IMG/VR virus record: IMGVR_UViG_3300010885_060015
Span: 1 to 51,790 of that record
DNA: 51,790 nt
From: a virus
Reading direction: 5' to 3' (one strand)
A program made the position numbers and the translations under genes. Of the stretch, positions 2,306 to 33,824 are shown one piece after another (position 1 is the stretch's first letter; every line of letters begins with the position of its first letter). The notes under the pieces are model-generated. The model did not search any database. It worked only from the letters and a program-made list of their open reading frames with translations, and had not been told where the DNA came from.

Positions 2306-2719
2306 TTAAGCTATTCCGGCGTTGGGAGGTGGCTCCAAATCTTGTTTGAGAAGCCCCTCTAGGTCTTCTATGTTTACTAAAAAGGTCTCGTTTTCTTTTT
2401 CGCTGGGGATTCGGGTCATATTCCCGTCCTCATCTTTATAGTCTGATCTTCTGATGCGGGGGTCGTTAACCTTCACAACCACGGCATGCGTTATTTGCCC
2501 ATCTTTGTTTCTTTTGAACTTCTTGATTGTGTAGGAACCCACGTTGCTGGTTATTCCCAATTTCTCTGAGGTTTCCGGGCTAAAAGAGAAAAATGTGCCA
2601 ATCTGCGGTTCATTTTCCATGTCCCTTGAGTCGATGCCGAGCACATCCTCTAGGGATGACAAGTAGGACTGTTTCTCCTCTTCTTCTTCTAAGAATGATC
2701 TGAATGATTTTTCGCACAT
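2306..2719 (-). CDS. unknown protein with capsid-targeting-like N-terminus
   Basis: 137 residues from the ATG at 2719. Upstream in-frame ATGs to 2935 would overlap the divergent plus-strand gene and are less likely. It starts MCEKSFRSFLE, with the F-x-x-F-L-E spacing seen in several other proteins of this window and in T4 capsid-targeting sequences; an acidic run follows. The rest is mixed beta/charged sequence (IGTFFSFSP, SYTIKKFKRN, HAVVVKVNDP) with a proline-rich end. It is divergently arranged with the gene at 2754 over a 34-nt gap containing TATATACT. Function unknown. Confidence 0.6.
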   Translation of the reverse strand: MCEKSFRSFLEEEEEKQSYLSSLEDVLGIDSRDMENEPQIGTFFSFSPETSEKLGITSNVGSYTIKKFKRNKDGQITHAVVVKVNDPRIRRSDYKDEDGNMTRIPSEKENETFLVNIEDLEGLLKQDLEPPPNAGIA

Positions 2720-2753
2720 GTTAAGGTATATACTTTGAACCGGGAGAGATTTT

Positions 2754-3146
2754 ATGAAGAGCCCAGCATTTTCTAATTTTCGCGAATTGATGGATAGGTG
2801 GGACGCCGCGTCTCGCATGTTTGTCGAGAACGACCTTTGTCTTTTTTTTAAGAAGGACGGCGTTTTGTATGGAACTACGGAAACCGGCCGCATAACCTTC
2901 GCTCGCATGAAGAATCCGGAGTCGAGGGAAGACAAGGATTGGGCTAAAGACGCTAGTTTTTCGGCCTATGACTTGGAAAAGTCTACTGACGGGGAAAAAT
3001 CCATGTCTGTATTTCACAACGATGATATAGGCGACATGGAAATCTTGACTCACGACAAGGTGGAAAAGCAGTTGGAAAAGAAAGGCAAGAAAATGATAGT
3101 TGTTTCCGACGACGAAGATGGAGACACGAATTACGGGGAGGTTTGA
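2754..3146 (+). CDS. hypothetical protein, acidic C-terminus
   Basis: 130 residues, preceded by GGGAGAG. The N-terminal half is helical and aromatic (NFRELMDRWDAASRMF, LCLFFKKDGVLYGTT); the C-terminus ends with VVSDDEDGD. The stop is followed closely by the next start, and GGGGAGG lies across the junction, so it is the first gene of a plus-strand unit. I do not recognise it. Confidence 0.65.
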   Translation: MKSPAFSNFRELMDRWDAASRMFVENDLCLFFKKDGVLYGTTETGRITFARMKNPESREDKDWAKDASFSAYDLEKSTDGEKSMSVFHNDDIGDMEILTHDKVEKQLEKKGKKMIVVSDDEDGDTNYGEV

Positions 3147-3148
3147 TT

Positions 3149-3328
3149 TTGTCGCATACTAAGTTGGAGAGTTGGGCAAGCAACATAGGCTACGTCGTAG
3201 AGAAGGACGAATTCGGCGAATATCTTTGGAGCAAGGAGGGAGGTTCTCTTAACAAGTGCCGTACTGCCGGAGAGATCGTGGATCGCATCTTGGAGGATAT
3301 AAGGTCGAGTTATCAAGGAGAAAGATGA
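3149..3328 (+). CDS. small hypothetical protein (TTG start)
   Basis: 59 residues. The TTG at 3149 is 7 nt after GGAGG; another TTG at 3143 is too close to that Shine-Dalgarno. The sequence has a short beta-like part (GYVVEKDEFGEYLWSKEGG) and a helical end (TAGEIVDRILEDIR). The stop overlaps the next start as ATGA. Function unknown. Confidence 0.55.
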   Translation: MSHTKLESWASNIGYVVEKDEFGEYLWSKEGGSLNKCRTAGEIVDRILEDIRSSYQGER

Positions 3329-3990
3329 CTCTTCCCTTCGCTGACAGTTCTGGAAAGAAATACGTTTGCTTCTGCTGCGGCGTTCAGTTTGAGGAATACG
3401 AGGAATTTAAAACTCATATTGTAGAAAATCACGAGGAAGGCCGCGAGTTCGTGAGGTGCCCTCTGGATCACTGCGGAGCCCCCGTTCGTGATGTCAAGCT
3501 TCACATGAAGGTGAAGCATCCTAATTTTGATTTTAAGAACTACGCCGGCCAAGCCAGAGCCATCTTATGGCACGATTTTTCCCAGAAAGGCAAAAAGACC
3601 AGAAAGCCGAAATTCAAGCAAGGCAAATATGAGTCCACGAAGACTGGCAGAGTGCTTGGGTACAGGAGTGGTCTGGAGGAGAAAGTCTACAAAATACTGG
3701 ATCAGCATGACGAAGTGATGTCTTTCTATTCCGAGCCTTTTCGGATAGATTACATACATGGTGGACAAGCCCATAAATATACTCCGGATCTAATTGTGAA
3801 TTTCATGGACGGGACGAAGCAACTGTGGGAGATCAAGCCATCCAACCAGACCGACTTGGAGATGAATAAGAACAAGTGGCGTGCGGCCGAGGAGGCTTGC
3901 AAAGTGAGGGGATGGAAATTCGAGGTCTACACAGAGCAGAGAATCAACAAACTCGGACAAGAGGTTCGGAGGCAGTCGATAGATGAATAA
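3325..3990 (+). CDS. zinc-finger PD-(D/E)XK nuclease, T4 gp4/TnsA-like
   Basis: 221 residues from the ATG at 3325, which has GGAG upstream and overlaps the previous stop. Residues ~12-65 hold two C2H2-type fingers (CFCC...H..NH, then C....C...H...H). Residues ~105-200 read as a PD-(D/E)XK nuclease: GYRSGLEEKV, FRIDYIHGG, KYTPDLIV (the PD) and WEIKPSNQ (E-x-K). The order YRS-x-x-E, SEPF, Y-x-PD, EIKP resembles T4 head-completion nuclease gp4 and TnsA-type domains. The fingers may direct it to DNA. Whether it acts in DNA packaging, repair or host DNA attack cannot be told from sequence. It overlaps the next gene by 8 nt. Confidence 0.7.
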   Translation: MTLPFADSSGKKYVCFCCGVQFEEYEEFKTHIVENHEEGREFVRCPLDHCGAPVRDVKLHMKVKHPNFDFKNYAGQARAILWHDFSQKGKKTRKPKFKQGKYESTKTGRVLGYRSGLEEKVYKILDQHDEVMSFYSEPFRIDYIHGGQAHKYTPDLIVNFMDGTKQLWEIKPSNQTDLEMNKNKWRAAEEACKVRGWKFEVYTEQRINKLGQEVRRQSIDE

Positions 3991-4375
3991 TTTCAAGGAT
4001 TTTTTGCTAGAACAGTTCCGCAAACCAGACGGGAGCATCAAGTCCGATCCGGGCTACTTGTACCATGCAACCAATACAGAAAACCTCGATGACATAAGAA
4101 ACTCCGGCAACCTTGATGTATTCGGTCCATCTCACGGGACGGACCAAGAGGTTTGGCCGGACGGCGGCGAAGAGGACAGATCCTATTGGACTGACAAGGC
4201 TGGATCTGCTTGGATGTTTGCTCCCGAGCACGGCACGCCGGTCATACTGCGGACTCGTTTCTCGCCATTGTTCAAGAGGGAGTCTACGGGCGATTACTAC
4301 TCCACGAAGACAATACCCGCTTCGGAATTGGAGGTCATGATGCAAGACGGAACTTGGTCACCTGTTCGGAATTAA
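3983..4375 (+). CDS. putative ADP-ribosyltransferase-like protein with capsid-targeting-like N-terminus
   Basis: 130 residues. It starts MNNFKDFLLE, which matches position by position the form of the T4 capsid-targeting sequence MKTYQEFIAE. The body begins YLYHATNTENLDDIRNSG, the H-x-T/N-L-x-x-I-x-x-G opening seen in KptA/DarT-type ADP-ribosyltransferases. It continues with YWTDKAGSAWMFA (aromatic plus A-x-x-F) and IPASELEV (candidate catalytic Glu). T4 Alt is likewise a capsid-packaged ADP-ribosyltransferase. The catalytic assignment is inferred from this layout and is uncertain. Confidence 0.5.
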   Translation: MNNFKDFLLEQFRKPDGSIKSDPGYLYHATNTENLDDIRNSGNLDVFGPSHGTDQEVWPDGGEEDRSYWTDKAGSAWMFAPEHGTPVILRTRFSPLFKRESTGDYYSTKTIPASELEVMMQDGTWSPVRN

Positions 4376-4377
4376 AA

Positions 4378-4716
4378 ATGCAAATAATACAGAAGGGCTG
4401 GGGCCACGAGAAAATCGTCCACAATTCGGACGGGTACTGCGGTAAAGTTCTTGTTTTCCACAAGGGCAAGAAGTGCTCTTATCATTATCATAAGATTAAG
4501 ACTGAGACGTTCTACTGCTTGGGAAGGATGCTTTTAAGGTACGGCCCCGAAGACGATCTATCGTGCGCTAGCGAGATCATTCTTGAGACTGGAGACGTTT
4601 TTCATGTGCCTACGGGACTTCGCCATCAGATGGAGGCCTTGGAGGATTCTCAATTGTTCGAATTCTCTACGACTGATTACCCCGAGGACTCCATAAGAAT
4701 CATTAATGGTGACTAG
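4378..4716 (+). CDS. single-domain cupin
   Basis: 112 residues from the ATG 2 nt after the previous stop. Both cupin motifs are visible: CSYHYHKIKTETFYCLG (H-x-H, then E and G) and GDVFHVPTGLRHQ (P-x-G-x-x-H), giving a full metal-binding set. It most resembles the C-terminal cupin of mannose-6-phosphate isomerase/GDP-mannose enzymes and small sugar-related cupins. Nearby glycosyltransferases and hldE would suit a sugar-nucleotide role, but the substrate is unknown. Confidence 0.7.
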   Translation: MQIIQKGWGHEKIVHNSDGYCGKVLVFHKGKKCSYHYHKIKTETFYCLGRMLLRYGPEDDLSCASEIILETGDVFHVPTGLRHQMEALEDSQLFEFSTTDYPEDSIRIINGD

Positions 4717-4724
4717 ATAACACC

Positions 4725-5564
4725 ATGCAGTTTAAAGAATGGCTTAAGACTGAAGGTTTCTATCCTTACCGTGACGTGCTCAAGGTCTACCGAGATCTTA
4801 TGCAAGGAACCCCAGAAAACCTCAAACATCACCCTGAAGGCAATTCTTGGGAACATGTCAAACTTGTGTTTAAATCGATTTACGGATCGGCCGAACGAAA
4901 TACTTCTAGAGCTGCAAGGGAACTGGAGAGACTCAAGGCCGATCCTTCAATGTCTGAAATACTGGGCGCTGTGGATTTCTCTGTCAGTCCCGAGGAGCAG
5001 AATGTTCTCAATTTATCAGCATTCTTGCACGATGTGGCCAAGCCCGACACTGTTACCGCTGACGGGCAGAAATTTCTTTTTCCTCCCGGCGAGGTAAAAG
5101 GGCTTATACAAGCCATAGGCCACGACAGCCCCAAATATTATATCCCTAGAATAGAAAAATTGAAGGCTCATGCTCCCGAAGACTTGCTTGAGTTCTACGA
5201 GTCCCACAAAGACTTGATTCATTTTCTGATCGATCGCCATATGGATCATATAAAAAGCAGTTTTCCTAAAGATTTTCTGTCCTCGTATTTCGAGGGAGGG
5301 AAACTAAAAAACGATCAGAAGGTTAAACTTCTACTGATTTTGATGTGGGCAGACATGCTCGGCCGCGCGGGAAGCCCAGATGTACAGCAAGGCATAGATA
5401 TGATAAAATCGTCCGCCGAGAAAAGTTTGAGGAGGGAGAAGAACATCTCTAGTAAGAAGCAACCGTTTGCAGGCGGAGCCGAAGAATTCAGAAGCATGCT
5501 GGCATCCAAGGGTTTGCCTCCGGAAGCGATAGAGTCCGCCGTGAAGTCTAAATTCGGCGGTTAA
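4725..5564 (+). CDS. HD-domain protein with capsid-targeting-like N-terminus
   Basis: 279 residues. It opens MQFKEWLKTE, a form shared with several other proteins here. The HD-type metal site is spread over HHPEGNSWEHV (residues ~36-46), FLHDVAKPDT (~102-111), GHDS (~131) and FLIDRHMDH (~163). This order matches the HD region of CCA-adding enzymes and related phosphohydrolases, without the nucleotidyltransferase head. A Lys/Gly-rich tail follows. Possible substrates are nucleotides or cyclic nucleotides; none can be chosen from sequence. Confidence 0.65.
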   Translation: MQFKEWLKTEGFYPYRDVLKVYRDLMQGTPENLKHHPEGNSWEHVKLVFKSIYGSAERNTSRAARELERLKADPSMSEILGAVDFSVSPEEQNVLNLSAFLHDVAKPDTVTADGQKFLFPPGEVKGLIQAIGHDSPKYYIPRIEKLKAHAPEDLLEFYESHKDLIHFLIDRHMDHIKSSFPKDFLSSYFEGGKLKNDQKVKLLLILMWADMLGRAGSPDVQQGIDMIKSSAEKSLRREKNISSKKQPFAGGAEEFRSMLASKGLPPEAIESAVKSKFGG

Positions 5565-5572
5565 ATATGGTC

Positions 5573-5600
5573 TTGAACTTTTGGTAAAATTGAATAGAAT
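5573..5600 (+). promoter_or_regulatory. promoter-like boxes placed for a leaderless transcript
   Basis: TTGAAC at 5573-5578, a 16-nt spacer, TAGAAT at 5595-5600, then only 6 nt to the ATG at 5607. There is no Shine-Dalgarno. A start of transcription at the usual distance would fall on the ATG itself. The same layout occurs at 26899 and 33887. Confidence 0.4.
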
Positions 5601-5606
5601 AGCAGT

Positions 5607-6644
5607 ATGAAAACTGATCTATATGTCTTTCAGTGGATATCCGACTTGGGCGGATCCGATACACGTCTCAAAGAGCTCTTGATGCTCTTAAAGGACGACT
5701 TTAGGATCACTTGCATACCAAACGATGAATTTAGGTTAGGCGAAAAGCATAACACGGATTTCCTAGATAGTCTGGGCATCAAATACTGTATGCCCTCGGG
5801 ACTCCCCAAAAACCCAGAGGGGTTCGCTTACGCCAACTGCAACTTTCGGCTTTTCAGAGAAGTCGGCAGGATTGATTTTATTCGGTCATTGAATCTTAAA
5901 TTTCTTTGGTCCAACGATATGATGTGGACCACGAGAGAGGAATTGGAAAGTATTGCTAAGGGAAAGGTAGACTGCTGTCTTTTTACCTCGCCATTCCACT
6001 ATGAAATAGTCTCTCCTTCTATACTCGGCATCAAGCCGAACCAGAAGTCCGCGATACTAGATAACTATTTTGATAGTTCCACTTGGCAGTATTGCGAGAG
6101 GCCTTGTCGGCCAACATTGGTCTGCGGCAAGGTGAGTCGCGATGATCTGATGAAGTTTTCCGATGACTTTCCTGTTTTCTACGAGTCAGCCACTCGGCTT
6201 GTCTCTGCTTCTTACAAAGTTATGGGATGGAGTCACGAACTAGCCAAAAAATACGATTGGTTCAAGTTTTCTGACAAGTGGAAATTTTTGGGCACAAATG
6301 CATTGGGCGCGCAAGAATTTTTGGAGTCCATCGACGTATTTCTTTATAACTGCAACTCCGAATTTATAGAGAATCAAAGCCGTGCTGTCATTGAGGCGCA
6401 ATTGACCGGTTGTCCCGTGGTCGCACCCAACAAGTGGAACTTTCCCAACATGATATGGAACCAGCGTACCGGATACTTATGGAACAACTTGGAAGAGCTC
6501 AGAGAAGCCCTGGTTGATCTCGAGAATTATGAATTCAGAACGAAGATGGGCAAGTTCGCCAGTGATTGTTCAAGGGACATATGGTGTGACCCTGTTTCCG
6601 CAAAGAGAAAATGGAATTCCGTCCTAAACTACGTGTCGGGGTAA
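5607..6644 (+). CDS. GT-B glycosyltransferase, GT4-like
   Basis: 345 residues. The C-terminal half has the GT4 nucleotide-sugar site layout: FLGTNALGAQEFLESIDVF, then SRAVIEAQLTGCPVVAP (E-x-A-x-x-x-G-x-P-V-V) and GYLWNNLEELREAL. The N-terminal half has the opening expected of a GT-B fold (FQWISDLGGSDTRLKELL). The ATG lacks a Shine-Dalgarno and lies just behind promoter-like boxes. A second glycosyltransferase follows 2 nt after its stop, so the two probably act on the same glycan. Donor and acceptor are unknown. Confidence 0.75.
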   Translation: MKTDLYVFQWISDLGGSDTRLKELLMLLKDDFRITCIPNDEFRLGEKHNTDFLDSLGIKYCMPSGLPKNPEGFAYANCNFRLFREVGRIDFIRSLNLKFLWSNDMMWTTREELESIAKGKVDCCLFTSPFHYEIVSPSILGIKPNQKSAILDNYFDSSTWQYCERPCRPTLVCGKVSRDDLMKFSDDFPVFYESATRLVSASYKVMGWSHELAKKYDWFKFSDKWKFLGTNALGAQEFLESIDVFLYNCNSEFIENQSRAVIEAQLTGCPVVAPNKWNFPNMIWNQRTGYLWNNLEELREALVDLENYEFRTKMGKFASDCSRDIWCDPVSAKRKWNSVLNYVSG

Positions 6645-6646
6645 AA

Positions 6647-7489
6647 ATGAAAACTTTAATATGGTCGGTGGCTTGGAATGAATACAGATTCATGTTGCAG
6701 AGTCTTGTTTCTTCAATAAGAGAGGCGGGTCTGGAGCACGACATACTCACTTTCTCTGACGAACCAATTCACGGAACGATTTCGTGCGAACTCGATAAAA
6801 AAATAGACTTGGACTTCAAGCAGTATTGGAAGTTCGAGTATCTTTTAAAGGTCTGTGAATTGAACTATGATTTGTTCGTATTCATAGATAGCGATCATTA
6901 TTTTGTTCGCAAGCCTTCCAAAGAATTCTGCGATATAATTGGATCTGACCCGTGGCACTCGTTCTTGGAGTCGCCCTTGAATTCTCCACAGACGAGACGT
7001 CCCGATTGGTGGGGTGTTCCTAACGGGCGGATGGTAAAACTCTATCAAGACTTCGGCGTAACCCAGAAGACTGCGTATAGCACCAACGGCGGTTTTTGGA
7101 TGTGTAAGAAGGGTTTTGCGCGCCACGCAGCCGCCACCGCTACAAGGTTCAAGGACTTTCAGAGGATCAATGGCATGGATCTTCCCGAGGAGGTCTTTGT
7201 AGCCATATTGTCGCATATGTTCAGCACGGAATACCAAGATAGATTCCACTCTAATTATGAGGACATCTGGGCCAGCGAGTGGACGGGGTCATTGAGTGAC
7301 AAGATTCCGGACGGCTCTCCATGGGAGTTCCAAGAGTACATGACCAATGCCAAAAAAGTCGTCAATCCTGCTATAGTTCACGCCATGAGAAGCAAGAATG
7401 CCCTTGTATCTAAAGGAAAGCAAGTTCTGGAACACAACGAGGCAACGTTTGTTTCTTGGGAGGACGTTTTGAAGGAGAAGAAAAATTAA
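6647..7489 (+). CDS. GT-A glycosyltransferase-like protein
   Basis: 280 residues from the ATG at 6647, whose Shine-Dalgarno GGGG runs into the previous stop (GGGGTAAAAATG). FVFIDSDHYF at ~residues 76-85 gives a D-x-D metal site. NSPQTRRPDWWG and STNGGFWMCKKGFAR resemble the acceptor side of GT8-type enzymes. The stop codon overlaps the proposed ATT start of thyX. It is co-oriented and nearly contiguous with the GT4-like gene. Confidence 0.65.
   Translation: MKTLIWSVAWNEYRFMLQSLVSSIREAGLEHDILTFSDEPIHGTISCELDKKIDLDFKQYWKFEYLLKVCELNYDLFVFIDSDHYFVRKPSKEFCDIIGSDPWHSFLESPLNSPQTRRPDWWGVPNGRMVKLYQDFGVTQKTAYSTNGGFWMCKKGFARHAAATATRFKDFQRINGMDLPEEVFVAILSHMFSTEYQDRFHSNYEDIWASEWTGSLSDKIPDGSPWEFQEYMTNAKKVVNPAIVHAMRSKNALVSKGKQVLEHNEATFVSWEDVLKEKKN
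7472..7487 (+). promoter_or_regulatory. Shine-Dalgarno and ATT start of thyX
   Basis: AAGGAG at 7472-7477, 7 nt, then ATT at 7485-7487, which overlaps the preceding gene's TAA (7487-7489). In-frame sequence from here encodes the conserved ThyX N-terminus. No standard start codon exists between the upstream in-frame stop (TGA 7470) and the too-late ATG at 7524. Confidence 0.6.
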
Positions 7490-9488: not shown

Positions 9489-9764
9489 ATGAAATTTAGC
9501 GAATGGATGAATATTAGAGAGTTTCAAGCGAATCCGCTTCAATCAATCCTTGGTGCTGGATCTAACGCCGTTAAGCCCCCCATCAAAAAGGATATGACTG
9601 TGGACAATGTTAGATCTATTTTGAAGAAGGCAAAAGACCCCAAAACGGCGATTAGGCAAGTTGGTCAAGTCTATGATGCCCAGATGGACAAGGCCACGGA
9701 CCCCAAAGAGATTGCGGTCGCCTCGCGCACAAAGAGCGACATATTTAGCGCTTTAAGCAAATGA
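9489..9764 (+). CDS. small protein with capsid-targeting-like N-terminus
   Basis: 91 residues beginning MKFSEWMNIRE, where I-R-E fits the [LI]-x-E cleavage form of T4 gp21 protease. The rest is basic and helical with no recognised domain (SILKKAKDPKTAIRQVGQVY). Its stop overlaps the next start as ATGA, and that next protein carries the same kind of N-terminus. Candidate packaged internal protein; function unknown. Confidence 0.65.
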   Translation: MKFSEWMNIREFQANPLQSILGAGSNAVKPPIKKDMTVDNVRSILKKAKDPKTAIRQVGQVYDAQMDKATDPKEIAVASRTKSDIFSALSK

Positions 9765-9937
9765 CGTTCAAACAGTGGCTCGTTACAGAGGGTGGCAATG
9801 GTTCTGGCACCAAGTTCACTGGAACTGGCGCTCTTGGTTCCGGCGGAATGGCCCAGCACGGAAGGGTTTTTAGAGTCGCCAATCCTCATTCAATTAAGAT
9901 AAAAACCAAAATTCGGCGTTTTTCAAGCTATTCTTAA
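9761..9937 (+). CDS. 58-residue protein with capsid-targeting-like N-terminus
   Basis: A short gene overlapping its upstream neighbour as ATGA. It starts MTFKQWLVTE and continues with a Gly/Ser/Thr-rich stretch (GGNGSGTKFTGTGALGSGG) and a basic end (SIKIKTKIRRF). The N-terminal ten residues nearly repeat those of the HD protein at 4725 (MQFKEWLKTE). If cut after Glu10, a small basic peptide would be left, comparable in kind to T4 internal peptides. That role is inferred. Confidence 0.55.
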   Translation: MTFKQWLVTEGGNGSGTKFTGTGALGSGGMAQHGRVFRVANPHSIKIKTKIRRFSSYS

Positions 9938-11129: not shown

Positions 11130-13208
11130 ATGAGCGAAATTCTTAAAAGGCTTTCTTCCAAGTTCGATAAGGAAAAGTTCAAGAAACTTAACGAGGAAAT
11201 GTCTTTCTCAGAGTACCTTGATCTCGTATACAATCGGCCTCGGCTGGCCAGAACTGCCTATCAATATCTGTACGATATGATTATGAGCAAGGGAACATCC
11301 AAGGTGGAGAGGTATCGTAAGACCTACGTTCACTACAACTTTTTTGACAATTCCGACACTCCGATCTTCGGGCTCTCGGAAACCCTTCATCAACTAGTGC
11401 AGTTCTTTAAGGGTGCGGCCGGTGGGTACGGCCCGGAACGCAGGGTTCTTCTTTTGCACGGTCCCGTAGGCAGTTCCAAGTCCACCATCTTGCGATGCAT
11501 CAAGAAGGGGTTGGAGAAGTACTCGCTCACTGAGGAGGGAGCATGGTACACGTTCAAGTGGGTCAATCTTCCCACCGGAAAGGACGACGGGATATACACG
11601 CAATCCGAGGACGAGTCGCCCATGCACGAGGATCCCCTAAAACTCTTGCCCGCGGACATGCGGAAGGAGGTCGTGGCCGACTTAAATAAGATTCTTTTGG
11701 AAAACACGCCCGATAAGGATCGCAATACTTTGTACCGTCTGAGCGTGGACGGAGAACTTGACCCGAGATCAAAGAAGTTTATGCAAGAACTCCTCGTCAG
11801 AAATGACGGGGATTGGGGAAAGGTAGTAGAGAATCATATTAAGGTGGTACGCAAGACCCACAACGAGGCCGACCGTTGCGGCATTGCCACGTTTCAGCCC
11901 AAGGACGAGAAGAACCAAGACAGCACAGAACTCACGGGCGATATCAATTGGGGCAAGCTGCCCCACTTTGGCACCGACTCGGATCCGAGGGCATTTAATT
12001 TTGACGGTGAGTTCTGCGTCGGCAGCCGTGGAATCGTTGAATTTATAGAAGTCCTTAAGTTGGCCAAGGAGTTCTTATACGACCTCCTTGGGGCCTCCCA
12101 AGAAAAGCAGATAAAGCCCAAGAAGTTCCCGCAAGTCGCGGTAGACACGGTGCTCATAGGCCACACGAACTCCCCAGAATTCCTTAGGCTCAAGAGCGAC
12201 CAGACCATGGAGGCCTTGAGGGACAGGACTGTCAAGATAGACGTTCCCTACTTGCTCAGGTGGAGCGAGGAACTGAAGATCCTTGAGCATCAGTACAATA
12301 AGGACAGAATCAAGCAACACATTGCCCCCCACACTCTCGAGATCGCGGCTCTCTGGTCGGTGCTCACCCGCCTTCAAGAGGACAAGGATGGCAAGATCAC
12401 CCTTGTGGAGAAGGCCAAGTTGTACGACGGCAAGAGCCTCCCTGGATGGACAGAGGACAGCGTCAAGGAACTCAGGGACAAGTATCCCGACGAGGGGATG
12501 ACGGGCATAAGTTGCCGATATACCCAAGACAAGATATCCAACTGCTTGAGTTCGCACTACGACTATATCAATTTTTTCATGGTGCTCAACGAACTCAAGG
12601 CCGGCGTGGATCACCAGTCGCTCTTTGATAACGAGGAGGACAAGTCCAAGTTCGTGGCTTGCATAGATCTAGCCAGAAAAGAACTTGACGAGATATTGAA
12701 AGCAGAGGTGCAGAAGGCTCTCGTTGGCGACGAGCATGCCATAGAAAGGCTTTGTGGGAATTACATAGACAATGTAATGGCCTATATCAACGGTACGAAG
12801 ATAAGAAACCCTTTTACCGAGCAAGACCAAGAGCCGGACGAGAGGCTCATGCGTTCTATAGAAGAGAAGATAGATATCCCCGAGGTCGGAGCAGATGACT
12901 TCAGGAGAATGTTGGCTGGGTTCATAGGACACCTCGCCCACAATGAAAAACGGTTCAAGTGGGATAGCAACCCGCAGTTGAAGAAGGCCTTGGAGGCCAA
13001 ACTATTTGAAGATACTAAGGATCACATTAAGCTCTCCGCTCTTAATATAAAGGGAGCCACTGTTGTGGACAAGGACATCCAAGAGAAGATAGACGCCGTA
13101 AAGAAGAGGCTCATAGACCAGTATGGTTATAACGAGCAGAGTGCGACCGACGTGCTTGAGTACATAAGTTCTATCTTCGCTCGTGGCGATGTGTCGGAAG
13201 ACGACTAA
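11130..13208 (+). CDS. prkA: PrkA family AAA+ serine protein kinase (YeaG-like)
   Basis: 692 residues, slightly longer than bacterial PrkA/YeaG (~640). The P-loop GPVGSSKST is at ~111-119, preceded by the PrkA head ([26 protein letters not shown]). Family stretches follow in order: [10 protein letters not shown], a region naming prior targets ([15 protein letters not shown]), [29 protein letters not shown] and the C-terminal kinase-like part. Family members are described both as Ser/Thr kinases and as AAA+ proteases in stress and sporulation pathways. It heads a prkA-yeaH-spoVR unit as in many bacteria. Shine-Dalgarno GAAAGG. Nothing looks broken. Confidence 0.9.
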
Positions 13209-13212
13209 AAAC

Positions 13213-13225
13213 GAGGTGAACCATT
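13213..13225 (+). promoter_or_regulatory. Shine-Dalgarno and ATT start of yeaH
   Basis: GAGGTGA at 13213-13219 is a 7-nt match to the usual anti-Shine-Dalgarno. ATT at 13223-13225 lies 6 nt past GAGG. No normal start codon is available in this frame before the conserved YeaH head. It is the second ATT-start gene in the window, after thyX. Confidence 0.6.
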
Positions 13226-14422
13226 CCACGCCGTATAGATTCTGACCACAAAGACTTCCAAGATGTCTACGGAGGCATAAGGAGGAAGGAACTTAAAAAG
13301 TATATAAAGAACGGATCCATCTTTCGCAACAGAGGGAAGAATGGCAAGATCGTCGTAACTATACCCAAGATAGACATCCCGCACATCGTCTACGGCGACA
13401 GTGACGGAGGTATTGGTCGCGGCAAGGGAGAGAAGGGCGACGTCATAGGCAAAGACGATCAGAAGGGTGACGGCAAGGGGAACAAAGCAGGACAAGACGC
13501 CGGTGACGGCATGGACATCGCCATAGATATGGATGAGATCCTCAAGTTCATGCAAGACGAACTTGAACTTCCCGACATGAAGCCCAAGCCAAGCGACACC
13601 TACGAGCAGATAATTAAGAAGTACAACAACATATCTCTAGTTGGCCCAGAGTCTCTTAGGCACAACGCTAGGACGCTTAAGCAAGCCCTCAAGAGACAGT
13701 GTGCCGACGGATCAATATACAAACTGCACCAGATCCCAGGCTTTGCGAACCCTATTCGTCTAATCACACCAATCAACAGCGATAAGCGGTACCGTCAGTT
13801 CAATGAGATAAAATTACCGTCTAGCAACGCCGTAATATTTTTTGCTAGGGACGGATCCGCGAGCATGGACCAGTACAAGTGCGACATAGTCAGTGACATG
13901 AGCTGGTGGATAGACACTTGGATCAGAAAGTTCTATGACAAGGTTGAGAGGGTCTACGTCTGGCACGACACCGTGGCTAAAGAGGTAGACGAGAAGAAAT
14001 TCTATAAGTACCGATACGGCGGCGGAACAACGTGCTCTACAGCGTTAAAACTAATATCCAAGATGTTCGAGAATAGGTTTGACCCTATTAAGTGGAACAT
14101 ATACCTCTTCTACTTTACGGACGGCGAGAACTGGGACAATGACAACGACGTCTTTATCAAGACGCTGGAGGACGAGTTCGGCCCTAAGTTCGTGAACATG
14201 GTCGGTATCACTCAAATACTGCCTTGGAGGTACGAAGGCAGCCTCAAGCAAGCAGTAGACGAAAAATGCGAGTCTGGCAACTTTAGGACGACCCAAGTCG
14301 GAAATTCAGGCTCTATCATATCGGAAGACGAGAGAGACAAGGGCATCAAGGATGCGATAACAGACTTATTGGGCAAGGAAAAGAAAAAGAGAGAGAACTA
14401 CTGGGCGAACAGTCTAGGGTAA
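13223..14422 (+). CDS. yeaH: YeaH/DUF444 von Willebrand A-like protein, ATT start
   Basis: 399 residues if started at ATT 13223; E. coli YeaH is about 430. The first ATG (13511) would cut off a clearly homologous head (RRIDSDHKDF, RRKELKKYIKNGSIF, IPKIDIPHI, then a Gly/Lys-rich GRGKGEKGD linker as in YeaH). From the in-frame TGA at 13217 to 13511 there is no ATG, GTG or TTG. ATT 13223 follows GAGGTGA. The VWA MIDAS reads ARDGSASMD (~residues 208-216), followed by GGGTTCSTALKL and FTDGENWDND. It is 14 nt after prkA and 2 nt before spoVR. YeaH partners PrkA in bacteria. Confidence 0.85.
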   Translation: MPRRIDSDHKDFQDVYGGIRRKELKKYIKNGSIFRNRGKNGKIVVTIPKIDIPHIVYGDSDGGIGRGKGEKGDVIGKDDQKGDGKGNKAGQDAGDGMDIAIDMDEILKFMQDELELPDMKPKPSDTYEQIIKKYNNISLVGPESLRHNARTLKQALKRQCADGSIYKLHQIPGFANPIRLITPINSDKRYRQFNEIKLPSSNAVIFFARDGSASMDQYKCDIVSDMSWWIDTWIRKFYDKVERVYVWHDTVAKEVDEKKFYKYRYGGGTTCSTALKLISKMFENRFDPIKWNIYLFYFTDGENWDNDNDVFIKTLEDEFGPKFVNMVGITQILPWRYEGSLKQAVDEKCESGNFRTTQVGNSGSIISEDERDKGIKDAITDLLGKEKKKRENYWANSLG

Positions 14423-14424
14423 AA

Positions 14425-16026
14425 ATGAATAACAGAAAATTCATGATGGGATCCCCCGTTCTTATGGGGAATAGTTCTGTTCCGGGCGTGCCGATGCCCA
14501 AGGAACTTAAGAGACTCCTTCCCGAGATATTCAGAAAGGTGAGCGAGTTCGGCTGCGACTTCCCTCCGACCGTCGTGGAAATGCTCACCTACGACGAGAT
14601 AAGTGAGATCGCAGCCTATGGAGGCTTCCCCGTCAGATACCCGCATTGGAAGTGGGGTATGGAGTACGAGGAACTCCAACGTGGATATCTTCACGGGATG
14701 CACAGAATATATGAAATGGTCACGAATTGTACCCCATGTTACCTTTATTGTTTAGATTCAAACAGCCTTCTTGACAATGTCACCGTCGTTGCACATGCCT
14801 TGGGCCATGCCGACTTCTTTAAGAACAACATTTATTTCGCCCAGACCAGCCAGAACATGATGAACGAGTTGGCGAACCACGGGACTAGGATCAAGAAGTA
14901 CATGAGTCGATGGGGCAAGGAAAGAGTCACAGAGTTCATCGACCATGTGCTCAGAATAGAGACCCTCATAGATCCGTCCAAGGCTTGGCAACCCAAGAAG
15001 TACAAGGACAACATACCCAAAGATAAACGCAAGTATCATCATCCAAGTCGCCTCAAGGTTGAGGATGGCCACGACTACATGGATAATTATTTAAACACAG
15101 AAGAATGGATTAAAAAACAGCACGAGCAGATAGAAAAAATTGAGGCTGCTGAGTATCTTGATCTTTTTGTGGGCTCAACCAAGGACATCATGGGCTTCAT
15201 TAGGGACAACGCCCCTCTCAAGCCGTGGGAGAGCGACATCGTTTCTATGCTCTATGAGGAGAGCATGTACTTCGCCCCTCAGAGGATGACGAAGACAATA
15301 AACGAGGGCCACGCCAGTTGGATTGACTACCACATTATATCAAAACAAGGCTTGAGTGGTCTCGGTCAAGAGCATGAAAGTTCGGGCATCATAGAGTATG
15401 CGAAGCATAAGATGGGCGTGTTGGGCGGCAAGTATTCAATGAATCCCTATAAACTCGGATTTAATCTTCTGTGCGACATAGAGGAGCGATGGGACAAGGG
15501 CAAGTTCGGTACCGAGTGGGAGGAATGCCCCGATATAAAAAAGAAACAAGATTGGGATCTAAAACTCGGATTAGGCCATGACAAGGTTTTTGAGGTGAGG
15601 AAACTCTACAATGATTTGACCCTCATCATGGAATTCTTCACGCCCGAGTTCTGTGAGAAGTACGAGTTCTTCGAGTGGAAGAAGTACCCGAACGGAGAGT
15701 ATAAAATCGAGAGCAAGGATCCCGCCAAGATCAAGGCCAAACTGGTCGCCAGACACATGAACGGGGGGCTGCCCGAGATAAGGCTCATGGATCCGAATCA
15801 CCGAGGCAAGGGGATCATGTTCCTTCAGCACAATTGGCACGGTCGGGGGCTCCACGATTCATATGTTGGGCCTGTTTTGGAGTCCTTGAGGAAGCTTTGG
15901 AAGAACGATGTCTGCTTGGCCACCAAGGACAAGGGGGGCGAGGAGTTTATTTACCGGTGCCGCACGGATGACTGCGTGGTGGATATGGTGTCCCGAGAGG
16001 AGTATGAGGACGGTTTTTATAGTTAA
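14425..16026 (+). CDS. spoVR: SpoVR family protein
   Basis: 533 residues, close to the family's ~510. SpoVR hallmarks include YDEISEIAAYGGFPVRYPHWKWG split over residues ~52-76 with GMEYEELQRGY, VVAHALGHADFFKNN (~119-133), FMGFIRDNAPLKPWE-like sequence at ~250, MTKTINEGHASWID, YSMNPYKLGF, and an LxHxWxG-like stretch (LQHNWHGRGLHDSYV). Its ATG is 2 nt after the yeaH stop, with AGGG upstream, so it is almost certainly co-translated. SpoVR proteins function with PrkA/YeaH in stationary-phase or sporulation physiology; the biochemical activity is unsettled. A terminator follows. Confidence 0.9.
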   Translation: MNNRKFMMGSPVLMGNSSVPGVPMPKELKRLLPEIFRKVSEFGCDFPPTVVEMLTYDEISEIAAYGGFPVRYPHWKWGMEYEELQRGYLHGMHRIYEMVTNCTPCYLYCLDSNSLLDNVTVVAHALGHADFFKNNIYFAQTSQNMMNELANHGTRIKKYMSRWGKERVTEFIDHVLRIETLIDPSKAWQPKKYKDNIPKDKRKYHHPSRLKVEDGHDYMDNYLNTEEWIKKQHEQIEKIEAAEYLDLFVGSTKDIMGFIRDNAPLKPWESDIVSMLYEESMYFAPQRMTKTINEGHASWIDYHIISKQGLSGLGQEHESSGIIEYAKHKMGVLGGKYSMNPYKLGFNLLCDIEERWDKGKFGTEWEECPDIKKKQDWDLKLGLGHDKVFEVRKLYNDLTLIMEFFTPEFCEKYEFFEWKKYPNGEYKIESKDPAKIKAKLVARHMNGGLPEIRLMDPNHRGKGIMFLQHNWHGRGLHDSYVGPVLESLRKLWKNDVCLATKDKGGEEFIYRCRTDDCVVDMVSREEYEDGFYS

Positions 16027-16040
16027 TTTGGGCTGTTTTT

Positions 16041-16070
16041 GGGCTTAAAATAGCCTTATTTTTTGTTTTT
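16041..16070 (+). terminator. short rho-independent terminator after spoVR
   Basis: GGGCT (16041-16045), loop TAAAAT, AGCCT (16052-16056), then TTATTTTTTGTTTTT. The 5-bp stem is short but the T-rich tail is strong. Confidence 0.5.
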
Positions 16071-16122
16071 CCAAACGTCTAGATACCCGTGCTGAGTTTG
16101 ACTAATTTAAGTACGGGGTACC

Positions 16123-16812
16123 ATGAATTCTATCGCCAAGAGAAACGTTTCGGCTGAGCAGCTGATAAGCGAGATTCACGAGCATCACATAAACCATCTT
16201 AATAGAGAGATATATCTCCATGGTTATATGGACGCCCCGGAGGAGCCCGGTGTTGACTACAGAATGGCGACCTCTTTCATAAAGAATATGCACATTTTGG
16301 AGCAACAGAGTTCCCAGAACATCTTGGTTCACATGCACACCATCGGGGGTGTCTGGTCCGACGGCATGGCTATTTTCAACTCTATACGCCTCTCCAAGTC
16401 GCCCGTTACCATAATAGGCTATGCCCAAGCCAGTAGCATGAGCGGAATAGTGTTCCAAGCGGCCGACAAGAGGATTTTGATGCCGGACTGCGAGATGATG
16501 ATACACCATGGTTCGATCGCCTTGGATGACAATACCGTTGCGGTCAAGAGTGCAGTGGACCAGAACGAGAAGTCTTGCAAGAGAATGCTCGAGATATTTG
16601 CTGAAAAGGCCATAATGGGCAAGTACTTTCAAGACAGGAAGTACAGTCTTAGGAAGACCATCACGTTCATAGATTCAAAGATAAAGCAGAATAGTGACTG
16701 GTATTTGATGCCCGACGAGGCTGTTTATTACGGCTTAGCAGATGGCATATTTGGAGAGAAAGGTTTCGAGACTTACGCGAAGATACGGTCAGGAAAGAAA
16801 AAGAAGAGCTAA
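16123..16812 (+). CDS. ClpP-like serine protease
   Basis: 229 residues. It has a ClpP/crotonase-like core: NILVHMHTIGGVWSDGMAIF (the strand and GG turn before the active site), GYAQASSMSGIVFQAAD with the likely nucleophile Ser at ~105, and MMIHHGS with the likely catalytic His at ~127. A third acid could be in MPDEAVYYGLADGI. The C-terminus is Lys-rich. Phages use ClpP-like enzymes as head-maturation proteases. Here it sits directly after prkA-yeaH-spoVR but behind a terminator, so both virion maturation and work with the AAA+ PrkA are possible. GGGG provides the ribosome site. Confidence 0.75.
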   Translation: MNSIAKRNVSAEQLISEIHEHHINHLNREIYLHGYMDAPEEPGVDYRMATSFIKNMHILEQQSSQNILVHMHTIGGVWSDGMAIFNSIRLSKSPVTIIGYAQASSMSGIVFQAADKRILMPDCEMMIHHGSIALDDNTVAVKSAVDQNEKSCKRMLEIFAEKAIMGKYFQDRKYSLRKTITFIDSKIKQNSDWYLMPDEAVYYGLADGIFGEKGFETYAKIRSGKKKKS

Positions 16813-29437: not shown

Positions 29438-29466
29438 TTGAAAGCCTTTGTGGACTACGGTATACT
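29438..29466 (+). promoter_or_regulatory. strong sigma70-like promoter upstream of dnaE
   Basis: TTGAAA at 29438-29443, exactly 17 nt, TATACT at 29461-29466. The predicted transcript start at ~29473 gives a ~118-nt leader to the GTG at 29591, holding two perfect hairpins. Confidence 0.65.
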
Positions 29467-29487
29467 TGATGTTCGTATGGCAAACTG

Positions 29488-29511
29488 CTTAGATATGATA
29501 ACATATCTAAG
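29488..29511 (+). promoter_or_regulatory. perfect hairpin in dnaE leader (1)
   Basis: Arms CTTAGATATG and CATATCTAAG (10 bp, no mismatch) around the tetraloop ATAA. No T-run follows, so it is not a standard terminator. It could be a translational operator, an RNA-stability element or, at DNA level, a palindrome for a dimeric protein. Confidence 0.65.
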
Positions 29512-29525
29512 AGCGCCAAGTATGA

Positions 29526-29547
29526 CAAGTCTTCGTTCGAAGACTTG
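29526..29547 (+). promoter_or_regulatory. perfect hairpin in dnaE leader (2)
   Basis: Arms CAAGTCTTC and GAAGACTTG (9 bp) around GTTC, 14 nt after hairpin 1. It has no T-run and ends ~24 nt before the AAGGAG of dnaE. The rest of the 29363-29590 gap shows no gene. Confidence 0.65.
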
Positions 29548-29590
29548 TTGAGACCAAAAGGCGTTAATCTAGGAAGGAGAAAAACACACC

Positions 29591-31009
29591 GTGAAATCAA
29601 AAATTATGGGATTTGAACATCTTCACCTCCACACCGATTTCTCGGTGCTCTAACTTGATGGCTATCAAACTTGTCATGAAGCAGCAGCCCGAGCCAAGGA
29701 AATAAATCAAAATTTCCTGTGCGTCACCGATCATGGATCTATGGGAGCCGTCCCCAGGCAGATACAAGCCTGCGAGGAGTACGGCAGAGAGCCCATATTC
29801 GGTTGCGAACTCTATGTCCAGCCGATGCAACCCGAACTGAAGGAGGGCGAAAAGACGACCGACTTGACAGAGGACATGGATCCCGAGGAGCGGAAGAGGC
29901 TGGGGAAGAGTTATCATCTCCTCGCGCTCGCGACCTCGCAGAAGGGCTACAGCAACCTAGTGAATCTTTCTTCTCTGGCTTGGACCCGTGGCTTCTACCG
30001 GAAGCCCCGGGTCAACCACGAGATGCTCTTGAGGCACAAGGAGGGGATTATATTCACTTCTTGCTGCTACAACTCTGAAATTGGTCAGGCGTTTGAGCAC
30101 GGGGGCGATGACGCCGGCTTTGCAATGGTCGAGAAGTACATCGGCATGTTCGGGAAGGATAACTTCTATCTTGAGATCATGCTTTTGGATTTCAGCAAGC
30201 AGAAGCCCTACAACAAGTTCATCATGAGGGCGCACGACAAGTACGGACTGCCCGTAATTTTGACGCAAGACTGTCATTACTCCCAACGGGAGGACAGCAA
30301 GATGCAGCGGCTTATGCTCATGGTGCAGACCCGCAAGACCCTCCAAGAAATCCAAGAAAAGATGGATCGGGAGGAGACGGCCGACTTGTTCGAACTCCAA
30401 GATACGAATCTCTGGATGAAGAGCGAGGAGGAACTCAACGAGAAGTGGGAGAGCGATTATAAGGACGCTATACCATTGGAGTTCTTTGAAGAGGCAAAAA
30501 GAAACACTGTTAGGGTTGCTGAGAGGGCCAAGGGCGTCAAGTTAGACCGCTCCGTTAAACTTCCCTACATAGAGGACGCCGACCAGAAGCTCCTTGAATA
30601 TATTTCAATAGGTTTCAAGAAGAGACGACTTCCTCGCAATGCGACCTATATGGCTAGAGTTAAGGAGGAGTACGACCTCATTTGCAGCAAGGGTTTTGCT
30701 TCGTACTTCATCATCCAGAAGATGATGACGGACGAGGCCCGCAGAGTATCCAAGGAACTTTTGGGGTATGGAGACGGGTCAGAGGCTGTCGGCCCGGGCA
30801 GGGGTTCAGCTGTGGGCGCCCTCACTTGTTATTGTCTAGGGGTCACCGACGTGGATCCCATTGAGCACGATCTTCTCTTCTCAAGGTTCCTCAGCCCCGC
30901 CCGAGGCGGCAAGCAGATGAAATTAAGATTTTCAATAGATCCCGTGGTGGTCACGGAAGATTTGGCGAAAGACTGCCCGTTCAACATACCTATTGAAAGG
31001 AAGGATTGA
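29591..31009 (+). CDS. dnaE: DNA polymerase III alpha, N-terminal part (PHP to GPGRGS), with in-frame TAA
   Basis: GTG at 29591 follows AAGGAG. Codons 10-15 give HLHLHT, the PHP metal motif, then DFSVL, a TAA at 29651-29653, then LDGYQ. VTDHGSMGA (~45-53) and the polymerase's GPGRGSAVGALTCYCLG (~401-417) follow. DnaE normally has [YF]-S-x-L-D-G here, so CTC-TAA-CTT inserts a stop and one codon into an otherwise intact frame. TAG, TGA and TAA all end other genes, so recoding is unlikely. Readings: ribosomal hop (CTC to CTT), a null mutation with restart at ATG 29741, or sequence error. The catalytic Asp residues lie in the separate gene at 33922. Confidence 0.75.
30934..30969 (+). repeat. 36-bp direct repeat, copy 1 (3' end of dnaE N-part)
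   Basis: Identical to 31261-31296. It encodes IDPVVVTEDLAK within the last 26 residues of the N-terminal DnaE piece. Weaker similarity continues to the next start codon, 79 nt from the repeat start versus 76 nt in copy 2, including GAAAGGAA just before each ATG. Confidence 0.85.
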
Positions 31010-31012
31010 ACC

Positions 31013-31261
31013 ATGGATTTAAAGGAACTTGGTGTCTTTGTTGAAGAAAATAGAGCCAAGATCAAGCGTTTTCAAGATGACGACTCAGAAGAGAATCTGT
31101 ACACGGTTCTTTTGGAAGCCACGGACACAAACTTGAGGATCATCTCAAAGTACAAGGTGGAGTGCGAACAAGCCTCAGGAGAGGACAGAGTTGCGCTTGA
31201 GGAAATGATTGAAACATTGAGAAAATGTGTCGTTGATAGCCTCTCTATTGTTCCTTTTTGA
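31013..31261 (+). CDS. hypothetical protein between direct repeats
   Basis: 82 residues, mostly helical and acidic (VEENRAKIKRFQDDD, LEEMIETLRKCVVD). AAGGA lies ahead of the ATG, 3 nt after the dnaE stop. Its TGA abuts copy 2 of the direct repeat, so gene and repeat copy form one ~327-bp unit (30934-31260). Function unknown. Confidence 0.6.
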   Translation: MDLKELGVFVEENRAKIKRFQDDDSEENLYTVLLEATDTNLRIISKYKVECEQASGEDRVALEEMIETLRKCVVDSLSIVPF

Positions 31262-31296
31262 ATAGATCCCGTGGTGGTCACGGAAGATTTGGCGAA
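31261..31296 (+). repeat. 36-bp direct repeat, copy 2 (leader of Sm-like gene)
   Basis: Second copy of the repeat, here not inside a gene. Its reading continues to a stop after EVFIIFH. GAAAGGAAAGA follows and serves the ATG at 31337. Confidence 0.85.
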
Positions 31297-31336
31297 GGAA
31301 GTCTTTATAATATTCCATTAGAAAGGAAAGACTGAT

Positions 31337-31615
31337 ATGTCTATTAAAATACTTAGGCTGGTTAACGGTGAGGATATTGTGACTCAAGTAGAGAGGAAGG
31401 GTGAGGTTTTCTTGTTGAAGAAGCCACACAGGCTCATAATCTCTAGGGAGGGGCTTGCGTCCATGCCGTTCTGCCCGTTTTCCAAGGAGGAAGACTATGA
31501 GATCTCCGCCCAACACGTCCTCTTTGAGGCCGAGCCTGAGGACGAGATAAGAAACTCCTACGCGAGCCAAGTCGGCGCCATAGTGCTTCCCAACTCCGGC
31601 CTCTTGACGCCTTAG
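31337..31615 (+). CDS. Sm-like fold small protein
   Basis: 92 residues: MSIKILRLVNGEDIVTQVE, FLLKKPHRLIIS and ISAQHVLFEAEP follow the strand pattern (I-x-G-E/D-x-I, then a P-x-x-L strand) of Sm-like proteins known from marine phages. Such proteins may bind RNA; this is inferred. The stop overlaps that of the minus-strand gene (TTAG). Confidence 0.5.
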   Translation: MSIKILRLVNGEDIVTQVERKGEVFLLKKPHRLIISREGLASMPFCPFSKEEDYEISAQHVLFEAEPEDEIRNSYASQVGAIVLPNSGLLTP

Positions 31616-32376
31616 CCGATCAAGGGAGTCCAGAAACTGTTGTAATCGTAGTCCAGCATTTCTCTTACTCCCAGTCTCGGATCTATGTTCTTCCAAAAGT
31701 TTAAGATTGCCTCAGCATTCCCTTTATGGAATGTTTCGATGTGATCTTGATGTATGGATGAATTAAAATCGCATCTATAGATGAATAAAGGTATGGAATA
31801 GGTTTTGCCGGAGTTGTACACAACCTCTTCGGATGCGGCTCTCGGCTTAAACCTTTGATCTAATTTGAACTTACCGTCTTTAAAGTGCATTTTTATTATC
31901 TTTGATGCGTGATGTCTTGTGATCACGTACATGACTGTGCAGTAGTCGTTTATCAGTCTGGGATGGAGATTTACTCTGAGGTTCTTCGTGCAAGTGATTG
32001 AGCACTGCAAGACGTCCCAGTCGTACGGGGCGTTCTTGATGAACTCCTTCCATGTGAAGGGCCAGTGGGGAACCGTGTCGAAGGATATGTCGTCTTCGCA
32101 AATTACGACATGATCGAGGTCTGTTTCCTCGTAAAAGTATTTTATGGCCTTGATGTGCGACATGGTACATCCGAGTTCGGCCTTGGTGACCATTTCCGGG
32201 AATCCGCACATGATGTTGCTTAAATCATCAACGCTTCTCGTGTCCACCGCAGATATTCTTGTGTGGGGTATGCCGTGAGAGTCCAACAAGTCTTCCATGT
32301 ACTTTCGCCTGTTGGACTCTGTGTCTAGATTGATCCAAAGGATCGGTCCGATCCCCTCGAGCTTAGATTTGATCAT
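31612..32376 (-). CDS. GT25-like glycosyltransferase
   Basis: 254 residues. ILWINLDTESNRRKYMEDLL and HTRISAVDTRS at the N-terminus, AELGCTMSHIKAIKYF (E-x-G-C-x-x-S-H) and VVICEDDISF are the GT25/LPS-type beta-glycosyltransferase signature set, and IHQDH sits near the C-terminus. Between the two dnaE pieces on the opposite strand, it breaks any common transcript for them. It has no clear Shine-Dalgarno. Confidence 0.8.
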   Translation of the reverse strand: MIKSKLEGIGPILWINLDTESNRRKYMEDLLDSHGIPHTRISAVDTRSVDDLSNIMCGFPEMVTKAELGCTMSHIKAIKYFYEETDLDHVVICEDDISFDTVPHWPFTWKEFIKNAPYDWDVLQCSITCTKNLRVNLHPRLINDYCTVMYVITRHHASKIIKMHFKDGKFKLDQRFKPRAASEEVVYNSGKTYSIPLFIYRCDFNSSIHQDHIETFHKGNAEAILNFWKNIDPRLGVREMLDYDYNSFWTPLIG

Positions 32377-32411
32377 TCTCCAAGCATATCAAAAATGAGC
32401 GATTTTGAAAA

Positions 32412-33824
32412 CTATTTAATACGGTCGTAGGTTTCTTTGCATTCCGGATTCTTGCATGGCTCGCCGCTCTTCTTGCGCTTCTTGCAGAGCGGACAAGTAC
32501 CAGGCGTTAGATAGAAGAACTTGTCCATTTCGGGGTCGCGTTTCACTTTGCTCAACATTCTTTTGAGTTGGGCCTCTCTGTCTATCCCTTCGGATTTCAT
32601 GGCGCTCATCATGTGTCCATGCTTCCTCATCGCATCTAAAATATGATGGTGCGCGAACTTCTTCTTGAGTTTCTTCTCCGGAGCGGCTTCTGGTTCTGTC
32701 TCGCCGCCTAGATCGTCCTCGAAGTCTTCGCTGTCGTGATCTTCTTCGTCATCAAACTCTGAATCATCGTCTGAACTTTCGTCGTCAAACTCTGAACCAT
32801 CGTCCGAATCTTCGTCGTCAAACTCCGAATCGTCTGAGCCTTCCTCATCCTCATCTTCAAAATCCGACTCATCCTCGTCCGAGCCTTCTTCTCCTTCTTT
32901 ATCCTCGCCTCTTTCCATGTCGTCCATGTCGAAGCCATAAGGAAAACCGACAGCTTCATACATTCCTTCTTGGTCGGATACAAACTTGTTGTAGGAGTTG
33001 CTCATTGATCCGACGAGCGAGTCGCATCTTGACGGGCCATCTTGATCGTCGTTAAGCAAATTTGTCAGTTCTTCGTATGCCTCGGGGTGCTCAAATATAG
33101 CCTTGAGGAGTTTGTTAAGATAACCCATGCTTACCATGGTGGAGACGAGGTTGTTTAATATTCCTTCGTTCTTGTCCGCGAGTGCCGTTACGTAGCGGAT
33201 TACCTCGGGTGGGTGCGGCTGGAACTTTCCTGTAGTGTAAGCTGTTATGAACGGCATTGTTTCATCGTCCACTTGCCCGCAGCCACACTCATCAAGCATG
33301 TATTTGGTGAACTCGGCCAAGGACATGCCTTTGGTCTTATTGACGAATCCTTCCGTCTTCTTCACTTTCGCGGCTGTTTGAGTATCAGGGTTGTACTCAA
33401 GTTCCTTGTGTCCTAGTTCCCCGAGCGCCTTGTCTCCCGGCTTGATAGCCGATCCTATGTAAGGCTTGGCTCCCTTGTCCGGAGGAGATTCGGGAATCTT
33501 TCCGTTGTATTTTGCATTGATGTCTACTTTGACTTTCGTAATTTTTCCATTTTCATCCACATACTCTTTCATAACCTCTTTTTTGACTTCGGGCTTGGCG
33601 TCAACTTTTGGCTCGTACTTGAGCGCCTTATCGCCGAGTTCTGCCAGTCCGCTTTCTCCCTTTTCCGGAGCCTTGTTGGCGACCGGGGTTTTGTAGGGAA
33701 CCTTGCTATTAGGTGGCGTCTTTTCTTCTGGTCCGTGGTAGTCCGGCACGGTCTCTGTGTCCGGCTTATCTACAACCGCGCCTTTGTCGTTCATGTACTC
33801 AAGGAAAGAGGGGAATTTTGACAT
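32412..33824 (-). CDS. long acidic protein with capsid-targeting-like N-terminus and zinc-ribbon end
   Basis: 470 residues. It starts MSKFPSFLE behind GGAG. A proline/lysine-rich low-complexity part (residues ~15-150) contains near-repeats GDKALKYEP, GDKALGELG and GHKELEYNP. A helical domain follows (SLAEFTKYMLDECGCG onwards). Residues ~305-375 are extremely acidic with DDxSEFDDE repeats, and the end carries CPLCKKRKKSGEPCKNPEC, a zinc-ribbon. The make-up (acidic, low complexity, tagged N-terminus) is reminiscent of prohead core or internal virion proteins, but homology is not shown. Confidence 0.65.
   Translation of the reverse strand: MSKFPSFLEYMNDKGAVVDKPDTETVPDYHGPEEKTPPNSKVPYKTPVANKAPEKGESGLAELGDKALKYEPKVDAKPEVKKEVMKEYVDENGKITKVKVDINAKYNGKIPESPPDKGAKPYIGSAIKPGDKALGELGHKELEYNPDTQTAAKVKKTEGFVNKTKGMSLAEFTKYMLDECGCGQVDDETMPFITAYTTGKFQPHPPEVIRYVTALADKNEGILNNLVSTMVSMGYLNKLLKAIFEHPEAYEELTNLLNDDQDGPSRCDSLVGSMSNSYNKFVSDQEGMYEAVGFPYGFDMDDMERGEDKEGEEGSDEDESDFEDEDEEGSDDSEFDDEDSDDGSEFDDESSDDDSEFDDEEDHDSEDFEDDLGGETEPEAAPEKKLKKKFAHHHILDAMRKHGHMMSAMKSEGIDREAQLKRMLSKVKRDPEMDKFFYLTPGTCPLCKKRKKSGEPCKNPECKETYDRIK

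Follow-up and report, generated by a model that had tools for sequence, protein, structure and literature searches.

A probable T4-type capsid-targeting address on unrelated proteins of a huge-phage clade

The internal proteins IPI, IPII and IPIII of bacteriophage T4 begin with some ten residues in which two aromatics stand three apart and are followed by a hydrophobic residue and then a glutamate at a gp21-type site, the bodies behind them being unrelated. Mutational mapping of the T4 sequence MKTYQEFIAE assigns targeting to residues 4 and 7 and processing to residues 8 and 10 (PMC9026906). Six proteins with N-termini of the same kind are encoded in a stretch of 51,790 bases, IMG/VR virus record IMGVR_UViG_3300010885_060015, referred to in its full length as the window. 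A first-pass annotation had read these N-termini as a shared address for packaging into the capsid; all six are encoded at the positions and on the strands it gave, and two aromatics three apart are present in each and kept in orthologs. The sequence evidence collected below supports that reading, and the N-termini (tags) are very probably short modular T4-type capsid-targeting propeptides that load proteins into the head.

In T4 the set comprises three internal proteins plus Alt, whereas here tens of unrelated families are tagged, many of them enzymes; tryptophan is frequent as the second aromatic, and the spacing up to the cut Glu varies. Alt, a packaged ADP-ribosyltransferase (ART), has a short MELITE propeptide with no aromatic pair; an ART-like enzyme of the window would probably be head-packaged with an N-terminal propeptide too, although its tag is of the internal-protein type and its body is smaller and different. 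Head proteins of the giant phages phiKZ and SPN3US likewise carry propeptides that prohead proteases (gp175/gp245) cut after Glu, but in SPN3US several of these are longer than 100 residues, and the phiKZ sites read S/A-x-E, in contrast to the 10-20 residues and [LI]-x-E sites described here. Polyvalent proteins of phages and plasmids, with counter-defence domains such as ArdC delivered along with the DNA, are also comparable; each is one long fusion, whereas in the present case the domains come as small individual proteins that all bear an address themselves. No report of such a tag in huge phages turned up in the open-licence literature searched.

By its sequence, the window is a piece of a huge-phage genome related to LR756511.1, an uncultured huge phage of 595,163 bp and the nearest named relative; synteny with LR756511 331-371 kb extends over a large share of it, and the PrkA-like proteins of the two are 68% identical. 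Two further clade genomes, G003 (320 kb) and G005 (533 kb), were used together with 80 IMG/VR loci surrounding the PrkA-like gene. The shared form was written as M.{1,5}[FYW]..[FYW][LMIV].{0,3}E, a pattern that picks up ipI, ipII and ipIII in T4 as positive control. It fits 6 of the 63 curated genes of the window; shuffling residues 2-25 of every protein in 5000 trials gave a mean of 0.21 and a maximum of 3, never 6. Because the pattern was derived from the six window proteins themselves, the out-of-sample genomes provide the fair test. There, 24 of 1118 gene starts match in LR756511, as against 17 of 2941 internal methionines (0.6%, p=3e-5) and 3.0 in shuffles (maximum 8); in G003 the figure is 18 of 485 gene starts vs 2.0 shuffled (p=3e-7), and G005 shows a smaller excess (11/903 vs 1.7). 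Across the 80 clade loci 102 of 1489 genes match, compared with 30 of 6390 internal methionines (0.5%, odds ratio 15.6) and 4.4 after shuffling. The motif is thus concentrated at protein N-termini, at gene starts and not at internal methionines. With one representative per body family and all relatives pooled, about 105 families match, where shuffling yields 6.6 and the rate at internal methionines predicts 15, so the enrichment is not due to a few expanded families, and the unrelatedness of the bodies, claimed initially for six proteins, extends to the approximately 105 families of the clade.

The scan of all N-termini that the first-pass annotation had proposed, run on the relatives' genomes, thus returned a strong enrichment, one not seen in two other jumbo phages. 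It bears directly on the idea that the six look alike by chance or because N-termini are ordinarily composed in this way (Met-Lys, then an amphipathic helix), in favour of which one can say that the pattern was written with the sequences already known and that some matches are hydrophobic membrane N-termini. That idea is contradicted by the shuffles, the internal methionines, the two jumbo genomes as negative controls and the family-level counts, and is refuted by the enrichment in relatives; we leave it a negligible probability. The tag is kept in orthologs of five of the six window proteins, the exception being the ART-like protein, which has tagless relatives. Its body recurs without a tag in proteins of mycobacteriophages and in one more viral protein, so that tag and body form separate modules.

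The core of the tag is F-x-[ED]-[WFY]-[LMI] close to the protein start. In the clade, Glu peaks at positions +1 and +4 from the core, where it reaches 25% and 31% against a background of 7%; P3 of these Glu, two positions towards the N-terminus, is Leu or Ile in 41%, vs 17% in protein bodies (p=7e-15). Outside the ART-like protein the window cores are shifted, with Glu at variable distance. As far as the alignments tell, the pattern is that of the T4 capsid-targeting sequence, two aromatics (targeting) followed by [LI]xE (processing), and coincides with the T4 residues mapped by mutation to the one role and the other. A gp21-like protease, for which a search had been suggested, is encoded next to the gp23 gene in LR756511, G003 and G005: Pfam S77 (gp21-type) matches a prohead protease of LR756511 with E=7e-28 beside scaffold-like and gp23 genes, and the order S77-scaffold-gp23 is the same in the other two genomes. 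Tagged genes adjoin the capsid gene in LR756511 (516905-520135, 521964-522461). In one small tagged family the residues directly behind the tag Glu reproduce the mature N-arm of the capsid protein that the phage itself encodes. The tag Glu of this family lines up with the inferred cut Glu of that capsid protein (LIKE/VGTSTGDVA vs LNE/VATDTGDIA); both observations link it to the head protease, with the position of the capsid cut deduced from sequence.

A shared N-terminus could also address another destination, be it a phage replication compartment, a chaperonin, or the membrane, which it would reach as an amphipathic helix. Any of the three could be served by a short helix of that kind exposing its aromatics, and the N-terminus of T4 gp23 directs proteins to GroEL (Snyder and Tarkowski 2005, as cited in PMC10052503). 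We nevertheless consider such a destination improbable, given the fit to the mapped T4 targeting residues, the alignment of the enriched [LI]xE site with the inferred capsid-protein cut site, the vicinity of tagged genes to the capsid gene in LR756511, and a promoter-like element common to tagged genes and the head operon; no search aimed at a compartment-forming shell protein was made. This element, TATATA, is present in the 80 nt upstream of 51% of the tagged genes that come first in a transcription unit; for other first genes the figure is 9.7%, and other AT-rich hexamers differ little between the two groups. When one gene per body family is counted, the proportions are 28% vs 6%. TATATA also precedes the first head-operon gene in LR756511, G003 and G005. 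Its presence at both tagged genes and head operon is most naturally read as a sign that the tagged set is expressed late, along with the head genes. The T4 late promoter TATAAATA was also tried as an upstream signal and rejected, not being enriched before tagged genes (2/187 vs 26/2407).

Several points weigh against capsid targeting as a general explanation for the six proteins. The expected Glu at a gp21-type cut site is clear in the ART-like protein and in the protein from 9489, and the protein from 9761 has V-T-E; the exact cut residue is uncertain in the HD-domain protein, where Lys stands at P3 of the tag Glu, and in the protein from 2719(-), where P3 of the conserved Glu is Phe, and in the family of 33824(-) the cut-site Glu is not conserved. 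The window has no S77 match, as expected for a partial genome in which head genes are absent; protease and gp23 are deduced from the relatives. Gene starts were taken from a simple caller, and some p-values are inflated by related sequences, hence the counts with one protein per body family. LR756508 and XacN1, jumbo phages with S77 protease and gp23, show no motif enrichment; protease and capsid type therefore do not predict heavy tagging. In XacN1, moreover, the lipase ORF279 and the chitinase ORF272, both found in the virion, lack the tag, so the tag is not the sole entry route into the head. XacN1, a cultured phage whose virion proteomics is published, had been considered as a model and was dropped in view of the missing enrichment and the two untagged virion proteins checked.

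If the N-termini are capsid-targeting propeptides, the tagged proteins would be made late in infection along with the head proteins, and the two aromatics, three apart on a short N-terminal helix, would bind the prohead core. The core-bound protein would be enclosed as the gp23 shell forms, and the gp21-type S77 protease would cut most tags after a Glu with Leu or Ile two residues earlier ([LI]-x-E), freeing the mature body within the head. On ejection into the next host, together with the DNA, the bodies could act before phage gene expression, several probably against host defences. Packaging, cleavage, ejection and the counter-defence function are what we infer from the sequences; for the window proteins, predicted peptides starting after the Glu include GFYPYR, GGNGSGTK and FQANPLQSILGAGSNAVKPPIK.

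The bodies themselves give an idea of the cargo. Tagged proteins of the relatives have Pfam matches to the Acb1 kind of 2H phosphoesterase, GNAT, tRNA nucleotidyltransferase, NADAR, the HAD domain of RNA-repair proteins, the ArdC N-terminal domain, alpha/beta hydrolase, Nudix, isochorismatase and low-molecular-weight phosphatase; the isochorismatase, phosphatase and some Nudix contigs came from the motif search, with clade membership shown for part of them. Several of these families are likely to act in counter-defence because T4 internal proteins inhibit type IV restriction enzymes (PMC12373910), and several tagged enzymes probably form a pre-loaded kit of that type. Targeting could, on the other hand, be real with the cargo mostly structural, small DNA-condensing or core proteins instead of injected effectors. 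Many tagged proteins are indeed small and basic past the tag, as in the 9761 family, and the capsid-protein N-arm copy would fit such a role; many other tagged bodies, however, are enzymes with Pfam matches, several from known counter-defence families, and we regard a mostly structural cargo as unlikely, if well short of negligible. The balance tips slightly towards a clade that expanded the T4 internal-protein trick, placing one address on tens of unrelated late proteins to fill the head with an exchangeable set of counter-defence enzymes (anti-CBASS, anti-restriction, NAD/ADP-ribose, tRNA-repair) active before phage gene expression. Few of the head-carried, injected proteins of large phages are known, and in uncultured huge phages direct measurement is not possible; a readable N-terminal address combined with a promoter-like element would allow probable injected proteins to be listed from sequence alone. 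Many tagged bodies belong to no known family, which makes the tag a possible route to new counter-defence enzymes. Such an address might also serve more generally to load selected proteins into very large heads.

Within the window, the ART-like protein (130 aa, 3983..4375, +) has an N-terminus, MNNFKDFLLE (3983..4012), of exactly the T4 spacing, with aromatics at 4 and 7, L8 and E10. Its body (residues 16-129) is related to the C-terminal domain of phrog_3147, found in 575-aa mycobacteriophage proteins, and to a domain of a Nudix-like protein at one of the IMG/VR loci (L019); relatives without the tag align only from about residue 16-18, or loosely from residue 7. It has no Pfam or NCBIfam match, a weak match to RNA 2'-phosphotransferase (E 0.05) and a poor structure model (pLDDT 53), and an automatic scan returned no relatives in bacterial genomes. 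The HD-domain protein (279 aa, 4725..5564, +) starts with MQFKEWLKTE (4725..4754), of which F3 and E10 are invariant in five aligned sequences and residues 8-9 vary. Its HD motif H102-D103 and D210 are also invariant in five sequences; the Pfam HD match is weak (E 0.06), and a model with pLDDT 79 gave weak PDB matches only, among them 3wfo (a tRNA processing enzyme) and SAMHD1. An automatic scan of viral contigs confirmed no relatives of it, and those used were found instead via the PrkA neighbourhood. The names ART and HD are tentative.

Two small tagged proteins lie together on the plus strand. The first (91 aa, 9489..9764) begins with MKFSEWMNIRE (9489..9521), and its orthologs, 59% identical and starting MKFSEWIVIRE, keep the I-R-E site. 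The second (58 aa, 9761..9937), with a basic C-terminal half, begins with MTFKQWLVTE (9761..9790) and has orthologs such as MSFKEWLVSEGGKGSG.

On the minus strand, the 137-aa protein at 2306..2719 starts MCEKSFRSFLEEEEE and its LR756511 ortholog MTLGFRQFVELEKKSG. In the N-terminus MCEKSFRSFLE (2687..2719) and just beyond, M1, S5, F6, F9, E11 and E14 are invariant across six orthologs, the most distant being 26% identical, and orthologs aligning from residue 1 back the start at 2719. A start further upstream was considered; the homology past residue 1 was judged to be the antisense signal of the overlapping divergent gene 2754(+), and the start at 2719 was accordingly kept. The 470-aa acidic protein at 32412..33824(-) has homologs at about 19 loci, the majority with an F-x-x-[FY]-[LMV] type N-terminus; LR_341701 starts MDLKSFSEFLRKQRNEAAA. 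Its targeting core MSKFPSFLEYM (33792..33824, -) had been read in the register F4..F7-L-E; this did not hold, the register conserved in the family (F-x-E-Y-[LM]) being the shifted F7-L-E-Y10-M11. This gene sits between two DnaE halves: DNA polymerase III alpha is split into 29741-31009(+) and 33922-36492(+), with four genes between, and is a single intact ORF in LR756511.

A protein of 173 aa at 37669..38190(+), missing from the six of the first-pass annotation, probably belongs to the tagged set as a seventh member. It starts MKDALEASKDDFDNWVDKW, with an internal F..WV core and TATATA upstream; G003 gene 17595, which starts MSEEIFQTWLNQW, resembles a counterpart when judged by eye. All three start-proximal TATATA sites of the window precede tagged or probably tagged genes: 2727..2732 lies 7 nt before the start of 2719(-), 33852..33857 lies 27 nt before that of 33824(-), and TATATATA at 37635..37642 lies 26-28 nt before 37669(+).

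Some further observations concern T4 and the head genes of jumbo phages. T4 gp61.1 (gene 61.1, NC_000866 18966-19130, -) starts MKTFKEFIKED, a near-perfect capsid-targeting sequence. LR756511.1 encodes a second, diverged S77 prohead-protease paralog at 242240-243133(-), distant from the head genes, and in LR756508.1 the S77 match at 156507-158102 falls into two halves about 1 kb apart within one 576-aa open frame, an intein-like layout. Parts of the major capsid protein are also encoded by small stand-alone genes, dispersed over hundreds of kb, each with a different short segment of the protein of its own phage (HMM E 1e-26 to 1e-7; the major capsid protein profile was built from three capsid proteins). 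These genes are found in G005 (L257, L258, L259, L260, near 58177, 453543, 517826, 351378), in LR756511 (125926, 195953, 306665, 430481, 588014) and at L116:2570 and L110:2976. Several of those in G005 have a common C-terminal tail, KKKYRSIDDPWE, which is present on adjacent small ORFs as well.

Elsewhere in the window, the region 11130-16812 holds the PrkA-like kinase gene at 11130 (Pfam PrkA) and a ClpP-like protease gene at 16123; two conserved genes at 13511 and 14425 are candidates, by likeness, for YeaH and SpoVR, partners of PrkA. At the left end, positions 7-846 form a tandem repeat that can be read as VVLGVG(E/D)A units.

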